In this document: positions 4,282-16,902 of the stretch, in pieces | Numbering within the stretch: position 1 is the first letter of the stretch | How the letters are laid out: each line of letters begins with the position of its first letter | Virus record (IMG/VR): IMGVR_UViG_3300021438_000070 | Coordinates: 1 to 24,642 of that record | Length of the DNA stretch: 24,642 nt | Strand: one strand, 5' to 3' | Source of the DNA: a virus | Position numbers and translations under genes: made by a program | Notes under the pieces: model-generated | Told to the model about the DNA's origin: nothing | What the model saw: only the letters and a program-made list of their open reading frames with translations | Database searches by the model: none

Positions 4282-4725
4282 TTAATCAACAAACGCTTTC
4301 ATTTTCTGCGCATGAGCAAAGCTTTTAATGCGAGAAATGATTTCACGAGCCTGTAATGTGATGAATACTACTGGAGCACCATCATCACCAGCATCCACAG
4401 TGAAGCGATCACCACCATACTTGATAGTTCTCACTAAGTCACCCTCTTTACACCACGCGCCTTCCGGCCAAGCTTCAAGAGTAAATGGATCCTTGTACGC
4501 CAAAGGTCCAATTTGGACTACCTTAGCTACAGTCTCATTAAACTTAATCGTTTGTTTCGTTTCGTCTACCAAGATAATCCCACCCTTGCTGGTTAACTTT
4601 TCTCGTCTTAATTGGACAAGTACTCGATCACCTGCAACTTCAATACCAGGATCTATCTCTGGAAAACATTCTTGTTCCGAACGTAAGTCCGGTTCATCTT
4701 TTGTGACAATATCAAATGCTGCCAT
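4282..4725 (-). CDS. GroES-like co-chaperonin
   Basis: The 147-residue product shows the Cpn10 layout. Residues 31-36 (AGDRVLV) match the opening beta strand, and a mobile-loop-like stretch follows with SKGGIILVDETK. The hydrophobic triplet Ile-Ile-Leu at about 50-52 is in the place that contacts GroEL in GroES family loops. VAKVVQIGP then matches the EVVAVGPG strand, and KEGDLVRTIKYGG matches the VKVGDKVLF strand. The N-terminus carries about 28 extra acidic residues and the C-terminus a basic tail. The ATG at 4725 is chosen because GGGAGG is 7 bases upstream; the longer TTG reading would overlap it. In T4 gp31 a phage co-chaperonin helps GroEL fold the capsid protein, and this gene lies beside the scaffold and capsid genes, which supports the same use. 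Confidence 0.85.
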   Translation of the reverse strand: MAAFDIVTKDEPDLRSEQECFPEIDPGIEVAGDRVLVQLRREKLTSKGGIILVDETKQTIKFNETVAKVVQIGPLAYKDPFTLEAWPEGAWCKEGDLVRTIKYGGDRFTVDAGDDGAPVVFITLQAREIISRIKSFAHAQKMKAFVD

Positions 4726-4752
4726 CCGGCAACCTCCCTTCAACTTTACAGT

Positions 4753-8171: not shown

Positions 8172-9611
8172 TTATTGCGCATAGGGGTTGACAAACTTTT
8201 TCTGGTGGTCGTCTGCGTAAGAATAATCTCTTGGTGGGAGATAATCGAGTTGTATCCATCCTGAGTCGCGCAAGACTCGTAACGCTTGTGATAGTGAATC
8301 TACATAGTCATCATGACCGCCTGCTTCTGGGAACGAACACACCTGACGCAAGAAACGTTTCGCCCAGTCTGCAAATTCGCCAGGACGTTCTGGATCTTCC
8401 GGAATAAATACTTTACCTTTAGCGACCAGTGGTGCTACAATATTAAGACGCTGCACTTTATCAGCACGACCTGGATTGTATCCCCTGACCTCGATGCCTG
8501 ATCCTTGTAATTCTTGGATGAGAGAAATACCTGCGGACTTATCTTCCATGAGAACAAGATCTGCTTTCCTTCCTTTTCCAAAATCATTATCTGCACCGTA
8601 CACCACTTCTTTAAAGTCGTCAATCACTTTACGACGCAACTCTGGATAAGCTAAGTGTCCATCCCAAGCGTCGAGTAAGATCACAGCCGTGCCTGCGTCC
8701 TCTTGTTCAAAGATGCCCCAGATGGTACACGCGGTCGGATCGTTCATTGTCTTTTCTGATGTCGCCGGATCGTATGACGCGATCACGTATTCTAAATTAG
8801 GCGTTGGCTTCTTCGCCGGCCACATTCTAAATTGTTTACGCTTGATGATACCTGCCTGTTCAGGATCTAAGATCTCACCATAAATTTCTTGGCGACCGAT
8901 GTCTGTACCATCGTACGTCTCTAATTGTTTGAAGAACGTTTGTGATAAATTCTCTTTGTTGTCGTACGATGACGCGTTGACGACATACACATCACCTCCC
9001 ACCTTCCCTTCGTTCAAATCAACAATCAGTTCTTTTGGTTTAGGTGTGGTTGTGATGATCTGCTGCACGCGAGGTATTCTTGGATCTTTGAGTCGCAGAG
9101 TAAACTGGACACCGTCGTATGCATCATCTAAGTATTCAAACGCACACAATTCGTCAAACCAGGCACCGTGGAATTGTTTACCACGATAACGTTCTGGTTC
9201 GGATGCTGGGATGCCTTGGATGAGTGATCCATTGGTCAAGGTGATTTCAAAGAGTGATTTATTGTAGTCCTTGATGAGGGACGGAGGTATGATGTTAAGA
9301 AGTCCTGAGTCCCCTTCAAAACATGTTGCACGAATATCATTCGACGTTGGTGCTGTCACTAACCAACGCGTATTGTTAAACTTCCATGCACGAATACCAA
9401 TCCAGTGTGATGCCGTGTGGGTCTTACCTGATCCCCGGCCTGCTAACATGAGGAAGGTATCATACTCGCCATCGTCTGGTTCACGTTGGTGTGGTAACGC
9501 TTGCATTTGCCAACGTACTTGCCATAGGGCAGCCTCAAGTTGTTGCTTTGGCCAGTGGCGGTTCTTTTCCGCGAACTGTTTTAATATGGCTTCTTGTTTT
9601 GCATTTAACAT
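8172..9611 (-). CDS. terL: Terminase large subunit (DNA packaging ATPase/nuclease)
   Basis: The 479-residue product carries the full two-domain motor. Walker A is GRGSGKT at 58-64, Walker B is GAWFDEL at about 149-155 with Asp153-Glu154, and the coupling motif is ITTTP near 186-190. The RNase H-like nuclease has acidic residues in ASYDPAT (Asp281), LMEDKSAG (Glu356) and GGHDDYVDS (Asp434-438). It pumps DNA through the portal and cuts concatemers. There is no intein inside it. The ATG at 9611 overlaps the end of the upstream intein-like gene by 7 bases, and AAGGA is about 12 bases away, so translation is probably coupled. No recognisable small terminase gene is in the window. Confidence 0.96.
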   Translation of the reverse strand: MLNAKQEAILKQFAEKNRHWPKQQLEAALWQVRWQMQALPHQREPDDGEYDTFLMLAGRGSGKTHTASHWIGIRAWKFNNTRWLVTAPTSNDIRATCFEGDSGLLNIIPPSLIKDYNKSLFEITLTNGSLIQGIPASEPERYRGKQFHGAWFDELCAFEYLDDAYDGVQFTLRLKDPRIPRVQQIITTTPKPKELIVDLNEGKVGGDVYVVNASSYDNKENLSQTFFKQLETYDGTDIGRQEIYGEILDPEQAGIIKRKQFRMWPAKKPTPNLEYVIASYDPATSEKTMNDPTACTIWGIFEQEDAGTAVILLDAWDGHLAYPELRRKVIDDFKEVVYGADNDFGKGRKADLVLMEDKSAGISLIQELQGSGIEVRGYNPGRADKVQRLNIVAPLVAKGKVFIPEDPERPGEFADWAKRFLRQVCSFPEAGGHDDYVDSLSQALRVLRDSGWIQLDYLPPRDYSYADDHQKKFVNPYAQ

Positions 9612-10600
9612 GCTTGTATGAATCCTTCACCAACTAAGATTGAATTATCATCGCCGTGTGTCTCGATATGAATACACATCTGCGGCTGAATGGGCTTGAT
9701 GTCTTTTATGTAACGTCGACCGTAATGTACTTTGACCGGTGGCGAGATCTGATGTTCCATGATGCGCGACTTGGTCCTGAAGAAGATTGCGTAGTCTTTC
9801 TTGTAGTCATCTGACGTGACGCTCGACTTATTGCCAAGAGATTCAACGAGACCTTGGATTTGTTTGACCGTGCCATAGTGCTTCGATGAAAATCTAAACA
9901 GATCACGTGTGGTGGAATATTGTCTTGACTTAGAATACATGATGCCTGAGAGAAGATCAAGTCTTTCTTCGACCGAGCCTAATAGATAGCTGTCTGGTAT
10001 TTCTCTTGGGACGTTGGGTGCCAGTTGTGATTCTATGGTGGGTAGAACAGTGAAGTACCGTTCACCATTGTCGCCGTGTTTGCCCTCGAAGATTTTGTAG
10101 CCCGCATCTTTAAACTTCTCATGGACATACTGAGATAGTCCTTTAGGCGGTAGCATTTTGTTTCTTGAGTTTCTATTGAAGAACCAGAAGCCAAAAATAA
10201 ATGGAGGGATGGCTAAGTACTGGTGTGGGAATTCTATGGGTTGGGTGGTGGGGATAGAGAACGCAGATCTGTTCCTCTTGTCTTTAAGAGACTGATCTTT
10301 TAAATTGTCCACCTTGGTAAAACGGAGTGGTCGTCTGAATTTCTTTTGGATGCCCTTGTACTCATCCAAGCGCTTACGATATTTTCTATCTTCTATCAAA
10401 AAGCCTAGATGTTTGTCACCTGCTATAGTGAGGTAGTCGTCAAACATAATCTCATAGCAATCTTCTGAGAAGTATTGCTGGACTAATTTGATCTTGGTTA
10501 ACTTACCATCCTTATTGAAAACATAATCACCCTCTTTTAATTTGGCGGCGGGTTTCCAATAGTCGTAGGTTAAAACTTTTTGTGTTGCTAATATAGCCAT
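9605..10600 (-). CDS. Stand-alone intein-like (Hint/LAGLIDADG) protein, apparently inactive
   Basis: The 331-residue protein aligns by eye with a complete intein. ATQKVLTYDYWKPAAKLKEG at 5-24 is like block A with GDYVF after it, and GDKHLGF at 61-67 keeps the block B His. PPFIFGFWFFNRNSR at 132-146 and RLDLLSGIMYSKS at 213-225 sit where LAGLIDADG helices lie, and MCIHIE...ILVGEGFIQAC at 308-331 is like blocks F and G. The expected first Cys or Ser, the C-terminal His-Asn and the acidic residue of both LAGLIDADG motifs are absent. There are no exteins: it has its own ATG and stop. It overlaps terL, a gene that often carries inteins. It is probably a domesticated relic; its present role is unknown. 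Confidence 0.78.
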   Translation of the reverse strand: MAILATQKVLTYDYWKPAAKLKEGDYVFNKDGKLTKIKLVQQYFSEDCYEIMFDDYLTIAGDKHLGFLIEDRKYRKRLDEYKGIQKKFRRPLRFTKVDNLKDQSLKDKRNRSAFSIPTTQPIEFPHQYLAIPPFIFGFWFFNRNSRNKMLPPKGLSQYVHEKFKDAGYKIFEGKHGDNGERYFTVLPTIESQLAPNVPREIPDSYLLGSVEERLDLLSGIMYSKSRQYSTTRDLFRFSSKHYGTVKQIQGLVESLGNKSSVTSDDYKKDYAIFFRTKSRIMEHQISPPVKVHYGRRYIKDIKPIQPQMCIHIETHGDDNSILVGEGFIQAC

Positions 10601-10620: not shown

Positions 10621-10870
10621 TAAAATTTGGTGCGAGCTACGACCTCAACCAGATGGACGCAATCGTTGTCTTAACTTACACCCTCGCACAGTGTAAGAGC
10701 ACCTTATCTACTATGCACCACGACCAAGATAAGGTTTAGTTTCGTGGAATCTCAAAAACCCCGTTGGGTGCGCATTGTTAAGAGGCGTTCAGGGTGTTGT
10801 TTTTTGGTCTTCTTATTAGGTTGGAAGATTCAACCATCTCTTTCTACACAATGGTAGGTGAGCAATATTT
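10621..10870 (-). other. Gene-free stretch with several stem-loops
   Basis: There is no credible gene in these 250 bases on either strand. Visible stems are a 7-bp stem at 10675-10681/10691-10697, a perfect 9-bp stem at 10701-10709/10727-10735 with a 17-base loop, a 5-bp stem at 10819-10823/10831-10835, and a possible long-range GGTGC/GCACC pairing from 10629 to either 10699 or the 17-base loop at 10715, the latter giving a pseudoknot. It lies between the pqqA transcript end and the intein-like and terL genes, so it could be an untranslated leader, a non-coding RNA or a packaging site. Strand is inferred from the neighbours. Confidence 0.45.
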
Positions 10871-10961
10871 AAAAAAAAAATAACCGCCAAGGTTGCGCTT
10901 GCTGTCGGATGGACCCATTGGTTGCTAAAGCTACCATCCTGGAGAGAGGCGTGGCGGTTAT
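10871..10961 (-). ncRNA. Structured RNA 3' of pqqA with terminal U tract
   Basis: On the minus strand a 10-bp closing stem (ATAACCGCCA at 10952-10961 with TGGCGGTTAT at 10880-10889) is followed by a run of ten T. Inside is a second stem, GGATGG/CCATCC (10934-10939 with 10907-10912). A U run directly after a stem is the form of a Rho-independent end, but the 62-base enclosed region is much larger than a plain terminator loop. It may be the 3' part of the pqqA transcript or a separate small RNA. It matches no RNA family I recognise and has no tRNA T-loop. Confidence 0.5.
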
Positions 10962-11034
10962 GTTATTGGCTTCTCCGACCCTACAACTTAACTACGGGAT
11001 CCTTATGGGCTTCAGCCATTGACCATTTATTATA

Positions 11035-11106
11035 TTACTTGTTCATTACGTACATAGTCACTTCAAAGCCAAAACGCATTTCTGTAGCTGCTGGAGTTGT
11101 CCACAT
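11035..11106 (-). CDS. pqqA: PqqA-like coenzyme PQQ precursor peptide
   Basis: The 72-base frame encodes 23 residues: MWTTPAATEMRF, then GFEVTMYVMNK. This matches the whole length and pattern of PqqA precursors, which typically read MWTxPxxTxxRxGFEVTMYxxxx. The Glu at 15 and Tyr at 19 are the E-x3-Y pair that PqqE (radical SAM, with chaperone PqqD) joins by a carbon-carbon bond; proteases and PqqB/PqqC then finish pyrroloquinoline quinone. AGGAG lies 7 bases before the ATG, and two GCATTAGTA motifs lie upstream. No pqqB-F gene is nearby, so the peptide would rely on host enzymes. PQQ serves periplasmic dehydrogenases such as methanol dehydrogenase. The match is by family memory, not by a search, but short length plus both key residues plus ribosome site make it strong. 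Confidence 0.9.
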   Translation of the reverse strand: MWTTPAATEMRFGFEVTMYVMNK

Positions 11107-11126
11107 AATATTTCTCCTAAAAAATA

Positions 11127-11142
11127 TACACATCATTGTGTA
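11127..11142 (-). promoter_or_regulatory. Hairpin with U run in the pqqA leader
   Basis: TACACA/TGTGTA forms a perfect 6-bp stem with an ATGA loop, followed on the minus strand by TATTTTTT and then AGGAG. It resembles a weak terminator or attenuator between the putative promoters and pqqA, or a 5' stabiliser. Confidence 0.4.
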
Positions 11143-11148
11143 CATTTA

Positions 11149-11158
11149 TACTAATGCG
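11149..11158 (-). promoter_or_regulatory. GCATTAGTA motif, copy 4 (putative pqqA promoter, proximal)
   Basis: The minus strand reads CGCATTAGTA followed by TAAATG, 43 bases before the pqqA ATG. It is the one copy with C, not T, before the 9-base core. Confidence 0.65.
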
Positions 11159-11203
11159 ATATTTTTATACATATGGCTGAGTAAAACCATGAATTCTCCA
11201 TAA

Positions 11204-11253: not shown

Positions 11254-11519
11254 GTAAGTCCTTGATTCCATTAAGTTTGTCAGGGTACAAAAACGTTAAG
11301 TCATTGATTATAAAGACTTGTTACAATTCTGTTACAAAGTTGTGTCAGGGTACGACCTCTGTAACCCATTGATTATTAACAATTTGACAGGGTTGTACCA
11401 GTAGTTTGCACTTTTTTTACTTTTTTTAAAAAAAATAAAATAAAAAGATAGAGACAAAAGTGAAATTAAGGGGTACTACTAGTACTACTAGTACAAGTTG
11501 TTTAAAATCAATAACTTAC
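11254..11519. repeat. Inverted repeat arm A (partner of 18107-18374)
   Basis: The reverse complement of this stretch is collinear with 18107-18374 along its whole length. Exact shared blocks include 35 bases (11340-11374 with 18253-18287) and 18 bases (11443-11460 with 18166-18183). Within the arm are repeated words TGTCAGGGTAC and GTAAGTCCTTGATT or TAAGTCATTGATT, a tandem of ACTAGTACTACTAGTAC near 11478-11494, and a poly-T/poly-A centre around 11411-11440. No gene is present. Short repeated sites round an AT-rich core fit a replication origin, and paired inverted copies also fit a recombination site. Confidence 0.85.
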
Positions 11520-12347: not shown

Positions 12348-13130
12348 ATGAATAAGAAAACAATGCCATACGCAGAGCTACTCAAAGAAGCAGTATCAAA
12401 GAAGGGCGTGCTCAGCTCATGCTACTCACGCTTCCACCGCTATAGTTTTGCCAATCAGATATGGGCATGGAGTCAATCATGCGAGATGAATATACCTCTC
12501 GCACCGATCGCTACACTCAAGCAATGGAACGCAATGGGTCGCAAGGTTAAGAAGGGAGCGAGTGCGATCTTCTTAAACATGCCAGTCATGATCGACGTTA
12601 AAGATCCAATCACAAAAGAAAAGACCGGCGAGGTGAAGCAGTTATTCATACCACGCAAGAATTGGTTTTTCTTATCTCAGACCGAAGGCGATGACTACGT
12701 GCAAGAAGAAAAGATCGCAGAGTGGGACAAAGACCTCGCATTAAAGAATCTCAACATCGATGAAGTGCCATTCACATTGGCTGACGGCAATTGTCAAGGC
12801 TATGCAGAAGGTCGTAGCATCGCTATCAATCCAGTCGCAGTGCTACCTCATAAGACACGCTTCCATGAGATCGCTCACATCGTGCTAGGTCACACCCTCG
12901 AGCACAAGATGGCTGACAGCGAGCTCACACCTCGAGACATCCGCGAGGTCGAAGCAGAGTCAGTGGCTTACATCCTATGCCAAGTGTTAGGGCTCAAAGG
13001 CGAAGAAGAGTCACGCGGTTACATCCAGTCATGGCTCAAAGATAAAGACATCGAGGATGCAAGCGCACGCAAGATCTTTTCAACCGTCGATAAGATATTG
13101 AAAAGCGGTCAGAACGAGAATACAATTTAA
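12348..13130 (+). CDS. ardC: ArdC-like antirestriction protein with metallopeptidase motif
   Basis: The 260-residue product has an ArdC-type N-terminal domain (about 8-110) with YSRFHRYSFANQIWAWSQ, LKQWNAMGRKVKKGASAI and a GEVKQLFIPRKNWFFLSQT strand pair; this fold binds single-stranded DNA. The C-terminal part has a zinc metallopeptidase signature FHEIAHIVLGH (His173, Glu174, His177), and EVEAESVAYIL nearby supplies the third ligand, probably Glu202 or Glu204. ArdC proteins of plasmids and phages protect entering DNA from restriction. GAAGGAG lies before the ATG. Being first after the promoter and the control region, it is likely expressed at once on entry. Confidence 0.87.
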   Translation: MNKKTMPYAELLKEAVSKKGVLSSCYSRFHRYSFANQIWAWSQSCEMNIPLAPIATLKQWNAMGRKVKKGASAIFLNMPVMIDVKDPITKEKTGEVKQLFIPRKNWFFLSQTEGDDYVQEEKIAEWDKDLALKNLNIDEVPFTLADGNCQGYAEGRSIAINPVAVLPHKTRFHEIAHIVLGHTLEHKMADSELTPRDIREVEAESVAYILCQVLGLKGEEESRGYIQSWLKDKDIEDASARKIFSTVDKILKSGQNENTI

Positions 13131-15019: not shown

Positions 15020-15310
15020 ATGAGCTTACTACAAGAGATGGAAACACACGGGCTAGCTGACTGCGAATTCAATCGCAAGCTTCTAGCGGAAGAGTACGAA
15101 GTGCAAGAGTGGACACTCTGCGACGGATGGACTAATACATGGTCAACGTACGATGATGAAGGCAATCAAGTACCAAGTACTTTTACATCGTTCGAAGGCG
15201 CACAAGCTGAGCTTAATGACTTCTTTTATCAATGCGAAGAAGCCGTTGCAGATGGCAACATGGAAGACGTTCCGGATCGTGAAGACTTTCGCATCGTGAA
15301 AGTCGCGTGA
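15020..15310 (+). CDS. Conserved phage/plasmid hypothetical protein
   Basis: 96 residues. The pattern VQEWTLCDGWTNTWSTYDDE...FEGAQAELNDFF...REDFRIVKV is one I recall from small proteins of mobile elements, where a strand with W-T-L-x-D-G-W is followed by an amphipathic helix and a terminal strand. The function is unknown. It starts two bases after the previous stop; its TGA overlaps the ATG of the next micro-gene. Confidence 0.75.
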   Translation: MSLLQEMETHGLADCEFNRKLLAEEYEVQEWTLCDGWTNTWSTYDDEGNQVPSTFTSFEGAQAELNDFFYQCEEAVADGNMEDVPDREDFRIVKVA

Positions 15311-16144: not shown

Positions 16145-16333
16145 ATGAGTAAATTTTCAGTACAACGCCGTTATGTCATCACGGATCTATTTGAAGAACC
16201 CATCCGCGCATTCTTTACCAAAGACGAAGCTCTTCCATACCTCACACCACAGACAAAACTTATCGTACTACCTAAGCAACTATCCGGTTATAAACTAGCA
16301 GTCACACTTGTGAAAGGAGATCCACCATTTTGA
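16145..16333 (+). CDS. Small protein upstream of the sigma factor, unknown
   Basis: 62 residues from ATG 16145 (MSKFSVQRRYVITDLFEEPI). No good ribosome site precedes this ATG. An alternative GTG at 16106 has AAGGGGAG close by but would put a 7-bp hairpin inside the coding region and add 13 unlike residues. Basic, with alternating strands; not recognised. It overlaps the sigma-factor start by 4 bases. Confidence 0.62.
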   Translation: MSKFSVQRRYVITDLFEEPIRAFFTKDEALPYLTPQTKLIVLPKQLSGYKLAVTLVKGDPPF

Positions 16334-16902
16334 GTGATACCACAGACACACTGACAGAGTACTTGCAGTCACTTTACGGCATCGACATATTGCCATTGAG
16401 TGAAGAGCACGAGCTCGCAAAAAGAATCGCCACAGGCGATCAAGAAGCCTTAGAAAAGCTCGTGAAGCATAACCTTCGATTCGTGGTCTACGTCGTGCGC
16501 AAGATGACGGCGTGGGGATACGGCAAGATGCCCGTCGAGGATCTTCTAGCGATGGGTAACGAGCAACTACTTATCGCCGGACGTCGATGGACGCCAACGA
16601 ATAACGCACGCTTTGCGACCTATGCTCGATCATTCATCGAGAAAGGCGTACGCCGTGAGCTTGATAACACCGCTAACATCATAAGACTGCCGGTCAACAT
16701 CATGGAAGCGATCAAGAAGATGAACTACACCGAGAAGACACTATTGCAGAAGCTCGGACGTAAACCACGCGAATCAGAGCTAGCAACTGAGCTTGGCGTT
16801 GAAGAAGAACGCGTGCGCCAATTGCAGAGCTATCTATCGAGAGAGCCGGTGTCACTCGACCATATCAACGACGAAAAATTTTTGGAGGAACAAGATGAGT
16901 AA
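16330..16902 (+). CDS. Short sigma-70-family factor lacking region 4
   Basis: 190 residues from a TTG start with GGAG about 9 bases upstream. No in-frame ATG occurs until about residue 59, so TTG is well supported. Region 1.2 is at about 7-38 (LTEYLQSLYGIDILPLSEEH), region 2.1-2.2 at about 40-87 (HNLRFVVYVVRKM, MPVEDLLAMGNEQLLIAGRR), 2.3-2.4 at about 91-120 (ARFATYARSFIEKGVRREL, IIRLP) and region 3 at 124-172. The protein stops soon after EPVSLD, so the -35-binding region 4 is absent. In housekeeping sigma the melting residues are Trp-Trp in YATWWIRQ; here they are Ser-Phe (YARSFIEK). T4 gp55 is a known sigma without region 4 for late genes, which fits the one-block GCATTAGTA motif. Confidence 0.85.
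   Translation: MSDTTDTLTEYLQSLYGIDILPLSEEHELAKRIATGDQEALEKLVKHNLRFVVYVVRKMTAWGYGKMPVEDLLAMGNEQLLIAGRRWTPTNNARFATYARSFIEKGVRRELDNTANIIRLPVNIMEAIKKMNYTEKTLLQKLGRKPRESELATELGVEEERVRQLQSYLSREPVSLDHINDEKFLEEQDE

Follow-up and report, generated by a model that had tools for sequence, protein, structure and literature searches.

An intact pqqA gene on a phage contig and a putative PQQ-regulon control region common to phage and host copies

The pqqA frame and its genomic setting

Does a frame of only 23 codons on a viral contig encode the precursor peptide of PQQ, and what would a phage gain from it? The frame (11035..11106, minus strand; 23 codons plus stop; peptide MWTTPAATEMRFGFEVTMYVMNK) lies in the window, as we call the whole 24,642-nt stretch that was analysed, and an earlier note made from the sequence alone had read it as PqqA from end to end. 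Profile searches bear this out, with both curated cut-offs passed and both models covered over their whole length (PF08042, Pfam PqqA: 40.3 bits, cut-off 21.1, profile positions 1–19 of 19; TIGR02107, NCBIfam equivalog: 38.8 bits, cut-off 20, profile positions 1–21 of 21); a six-frame search of the record with PF08042 returned 38.1 bits. A degenerate PqqA pattern matched once in the window, with 0 matches expected in shuffles. The two residues from which PQQ is formed, Glu15 and Tyr19, are in place at the spacing of the PqqA family, as the note had claimed, and the ribosome site it had proposed corresponds to a Shine–Dalgarno AGGAG just upstream of the gene (11114..11118, minus strand). The observation of an intact phage pqqA is confirmed.

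Within its 24.6 kb the contig encodes a recognisable terminase, portal, capsid and primase, as expected of a genuine phage genome. No frame for pqqB-E was seen in the ORF list of the window, which is a fragment, in agreement with the note's remark that no pqq operon is nearby; adjacency to pqqBCDE, typical of PqqA and not required of it, is not found. Between pqqA and the terminase large subunit (8172..9611, minus strand) lies a 331-aa Hint/intein-like protein (9605..10600, minus strand). It is free-standing and conserved across the lineage, its frame overlaps the start of the terminase, and its PHROG matches are intein-bearing terminases. Two imperfect 42-nt direct repeats (11278-11384, plus strand, TGTCAGGGTAC...CATTGATTAT) are situated between the divergent gene arms, possibly representing early promoters, operators or an origin. 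A GroES-like cochaperonin (4282-4743, minus strand) and an ArdC-like antirestriction protein (12348-13130, plus strand) are also encoded.

Occurrence, retention and descent

A peptide identical to that of the window occurs in Methylophilaceae genomes, the comparison that the earlier note had called for, and is also encoded, without annotation, by P19250A, a phage with a host of this family (tblastn: 100 % identity). On the strength of this identity and of the relatives described below, we infer a Methylophilaceae host for the window contig. By tblastn against 50,697 phage records, pqqA was found in nine of the nine cultured Methylophilales phages located there (P19250A, Venkman, MEP301, MEP401, MEP402 and four Melnitz isolates), a count that leaves out HIM624-A, Venkman EXVC038S and MEP431-434, which are absent from the phage collection. 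The same search matched one spring-water phage contig, and a second, diverged PqqA query added no further phage from these records; the two queries together match only the nine cultured phages, the spring-water contig and one mislabelled bacterial contig. The nine cultured phages span several unrelated genome types, and the gene is never annotated as such in them, as the note had foreseen for so short a frame. Five phage records list nothing at the match; in the Melnitz and spring-water records the sole feature beneath it is a hypothetical protein, which lies on the opposite strand in the two that were opened.

Two records, CAKLQF020000010.1 and CAKLQH020000055.1, are filed as 'Acinetobacter phage MD-2021a'. 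The former carries a complete pqq operon and looks bacterial-chromosomal; we rejected it as an instance of phage pqqA, and it served as positive control in the search for pqqB-E.

Scanning IMG/VR with the degenerate PqqA pattern returned at least 120 contigs, and a sub-pattern representing ~13 % of those contigs again returned at least 120. By extrapolation from the sub-pattern, the IMG/VR total is probably ~950 or more contigs with pqqA, some of which may not be viral. No pqqB, C, D or E was detected by tblastn in 225 viral pqqA loci (120 + 105 among the matches listed), whereas the same search found pqqB-E in 22 host loci and in the mislabelled MD-2021a contig.

On a lineage tree built from relatives of the terminase large subunit, one clade with full support has pqqA upstream of the terminase gene in all 17 members that could be scored; none of the 35 scorable members of its sister clade has it, and this distribution needs one change. 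The frame is therefore kept in close relatives, as the note had wished to see, with one exception: L267, which falls inside the pqqA clade and whose upstream sequence is too short to score, has no pqqA in the 2.1 kb available. Terminases of the pqqA clade differ by up to ~12 % in protein. In the sister-clade members inspected, the next gene is directly preceded by an unrelated conserved frame of ~101 residues with no Pfam or PHROG match. This frame (YQIQGALE...LRVLVCDLYNFE) precedes the Hint-like gene at L272:4768-5076 and stands in the same place in L288, L293, L299, L316 and L276.

Viral copies with a host-type core have a pS of 0.53 and a pN of 0.067, figures that indicate purifying selection on viral pqqA. 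The exact peptide of the window is encoded by 20 distinct DNA sequences in viruses and 57 in hosts, and five viral pqqA coding sequences are identical to host ones at the DNA level. A megablast comparison of the window with P19250A detected DNA similarity nowhere but at 11026-11149, a segment made up of the gene and the sequence just upstream of it. The selection figures and a control element common with the host correspond to what defines an auxiliary metabolic gene, namely host derivation together with selection.

The PQQ box, the proposed promoter and the leaders

Phage and host pqqA copies carry a common cis element, TCATGAWWWTCATKAG, newly described here and named the PQQ box; no earlier description was found in the open-licence literature. 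De novo motif discovery, run separately on hosts and viruses with a custom EM script (sequences dereplicated at 85 %, some relatedness being left), returned TcATGAattTcaTTAG in 95 % of 116 host upstream regions and TcATGATTTTcctTAg in 81 % of 119 viral ones. A host-trained matrix scored at least 10 bits in 63 of the 119 viral pqqA upstream regions, as against 1.0 % of 1203 other gene starts. With the other genes of the same contigs as control, this amounts to an odds ratio of 112, although this ratio and the p values are only descriptive, since relatedness partly remains and the data had already been seen when the threshold was set at 10 bits. Of another viral set outside the training data, 26-34 % had a box. 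About one-third of viral pqqA copies have no box at 8 bits, some of them having another structured leader instead.

Boxes that are exact or have one mismatch precede pqqA in host genomes and, in four genomes, pqqB; one box in Methylophilus is positioned between mxaF and mxaJ (gene names read from the sequence by eye). Box matches in host loci L378, L371, L363, L379 and L380 also precede genes for a small secreted protein and a TonB-dependent receptor, which are possible further members of a PQQ regulon. In hosts, the distance from the box start to a TATAAT-like hexamer is mostly 60 bp; a second stretch, less strongly conserved, follows ~22 bp downstream of the first. In viruses, the hexamer is found at 37-38 or 59-61 bp from the box start, so that phage promoters with a single box stay in register with the proximal position of the hosts. 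Phage and host copies have in common the order of box, -10 in the same register and leader hairpin.

A box matching the host motif at the host spacing to the -10 was found across the set. Within the window, the candidate activator site is TCATGGTTTTACTCAGC (11176..11192, minus strand; 12.6 bits), of the kind common to host pqqA and pqqB promoters. It is followed by a putative -10-like region (11145..11155, minus strand) in which ATTAGT (11155-11150) overlaps TATAAA (11150-11145); ATTAGT is a non-canonical -10, conserved in the lineage, at +37 bp from the box start. A stronger chance match to the box occurs at 15023, so the box is not unique within the window and its support rests on comparison across genomes. 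The earlier note had proposed two putative phage promoters upstream of the gene. A sigma-70 scan recovered one minus-strand candidate (11335-11307), but matches in the region were no more numerous than in shuffles (3 found, 3.2 expected), so that this claim held only in part. Judged by the sequence evidence, the promoter fits the description of a host-type PQQ-regulon promoter better than that of a phage promoter, the box at 11192-11176 being better supported than the sigma-70 candidate. The window phage also encodes a sigma-70-like factor of its own (16330-16902, plus strand), which could drive pqqA and counts against the involvement of a host activator.

The 5' untranslated region of the window's pqqA contains an inverted repeat, TGTACACAATGATGTGTATA, forming a leader hairpin (11125..11144, minus strand; leader z -2.1). 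Viral and host pqqA leaders (n = 109 and 105) are both better folded than the leaders of other phage genes (mean z of -1.24, -1.40 and -0.36, respectively; p 3.5e-8, to be read as descriptive), and a search of Rfam assigned the pqqA leaders to no family. After the gene, a terminator-like hairpin is predicted (10870..10961, minus strand), comprising a 10-bp stem (ATAACCGCCA/TGGCGGTTAT) and then ~10 U; the overall folding energy of this region is no better than that of shuffles. The hairpin makes pqqA look like its own transcription unit. Two sub-threshold matches to the Rfam abiF RNA also fall after pqqA (10758-10794 and 10882-10958, minus strand; 31.9 and 26.2 bits, cut-off 37). Such matches are absent near pqqA in the relative L254, suggesting that they may have arisen by chance in terminator hairpins.

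In some phage and marine host copies, the box is replaced by a second leader type, TCAAG-NNNN-A(C/T)(C/T)T ... TC-NNNN-(T/C)GA, with examples upstream of pqqA at L080:623-696, L042:808-881, L086:6016-6089, L145:2375-2448, L204:2608-2681 and others. Its 6-bp helix is paired in 98.8 % of cells, and its covariation score of 0.777 compares with 0.273 in shuffles (reached in 0/500), all slid controls being far lower; one unpaired base in the L042 row of the alignment was entered wrongly, as G for A, and falls outside the helix that was counted. This leader has no Rfam match and no earlier description that we found in the open-licence literature, and we regard it as a candidate new cis-regulatory RNA.

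Proposed role and relation to known systems

What is observed is an intact, selected and widespread gene with no pqqB-E near it and with a box, spacing and leader hairpin common with hosts. We think it likely that this is a functional pqqA of a Methylophilaceae phage that tops up PqqA under host PQQ regulation and so sustains methanol oxidation. A phage metabolic gene feeding the host PQQ pathway, as the earlier note had suggested, is also the best reading of the profile match and of the retention in relatives. Activator binding, transcription in infection, cross-linking, higher PQQ and a benefit to the phage would then be expected as follows. Binding of the host activator of PQQ genes to the box at 11192-11176 would bring in host RNA polymerase, and PqqA peptide would be made in a burst from a short transcript that has the 5' leader hairpin and a terminator of its own. 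The remaining steps would fall to host enzymes, with PqqE/PqqD joining Glu15 to Tyr19 and PqqB/C completing the synthesis of PQQ. Methanol dehydrogenase has PQQ as its cofactor, and PQQ-dependent methanol oxidation would in this way be kept running during infection. Each PQQ made consumes PqqA; the phage would add dosage of the substrate gene and leave the enzymes to the host. We counted 1-12 pqqA copies per host in ten genomes, and Methylophilaceae are described as having 3-12 pqqA copies, the remaining pqq genes being usually present once (PMC4109929). With pqqA the one pqq gene that is multi-copy in hosts, extra PqqA is the likely lever.

Among the alternatives, the peptide could be a decoy or regulator that occupies PqqD/PqqE or titrates host control, slowing PQQ synthesis. 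Small phage proteins often inhibit host enzymes, and no pqq enzyme genes accompany the phage pqqA. However, the phage peptide has stayed identical to host substrate forms over its full length, Glu15, Tyr19 and the C-terminus among the rest, and a decoy would need neither the cross-link pair nor a host-type promoter, which makes this reading unlikely. We consider it quite improbable that host pqqA and its promoter were picked up by chance as a passenger whose loss is still to come. Gene and control region do match host copies, to the point of DNA identity in the five coding sequences noted above, and L267 is without pqqA in its available sequence; against this, pN is much smaller than pS in the viruses, the gene is present in unrelated phage lineages, and it has been retained across a clade with terminases as divergent as those described here. 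Related radical SAM enzymes act in other systems of ribosomally made, post-translationally modified peptides, the class to which PqqA belongs, so a phage or accessory enzyme of this family might instead turn the peptide into some other modified product. This is very unlikely, as the peptide equals host PqqA with no divergence of its core and a non-exhaustive inspection of the window's frames revealed no radical SAM gene. A chance open frame without function, for which only the length of 23 codons speaks, is refuted by the profile matches, the pattern search against shuffles, the clade retention and the purifying selection.

The reading as a functional, host-regulated pqqA may extend further, although we put this forward tentatively: methylotroph phages as a rule would carry a pqqA minigene with a host PQQ-regulon control region, driven by a host activator that senses methanol or PQQ demand, while the second leader, found on phage and marine host copies, would be a structured RNA not described before, perhaps a sensor of PQQ or of a related signal. 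PQQ supply is a candidate bottleneck when phages infect the methanol oxidisers that abound in lakes and along coasts. The gene is too short for gene callers, yet it is present in every cultured Methylophilales phage examined and in many environmental phages, and it offers a clear case of a phage metabolic gene with a control element common to a host regulon. Cultured phage-host pairs exist for P19250A, Venkman and MEP301. A text search of the papers on Venkman, MEP301 and MEP401/402 returned no mention of PQQ, and the Melnitz paper names it only as a medium ingredient.

Phage pqqA is not new as a kind, since it was reported in 2020 in the Lake Baikal population VP_266, together with methanol dehydrogenase (Coutinho 2020, PMC7678222); pqqA is also listed among viral genes in reservoir sediments (PMC13188868), and other reports may exist outside the open-licence literature. 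The Baikal paper states that P19250A carries none of its auxiliary genes (PMC7678222), which does not hold for pqqA, present there without annotation and with a peptide identical to the window's. VP_266 resembles the case described here in having a viral pqqA in a predicted Methylophilaceae phage with the same proposed role, and differs in being a T4-like phage that also carries methanol dehydrogenase (PMC7678222).

Compared with Methylophilaceae PqqA (PF08042, TIGR02107), the phage gene has an identical 23-residue peptide and the same box, -10 spacing and type of leader hairpin, and hosts likewise have stand-alone pqqA copies away from pqqBCDE. It differs in its phage location, in that no pqqB-E was detected in its vicinity, and in usually having one box rather than two. 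With auxiliary metabolic genes such as psbA and pmoC, phages provide part of the main pathway by which the host gains energy. Phage pqqA likewise supplies a component of host energy metabolism; unlike psbA and pmoC, it gives a consumed peptide substrate rather than an enzyme, and it does so with a control element common with the host.
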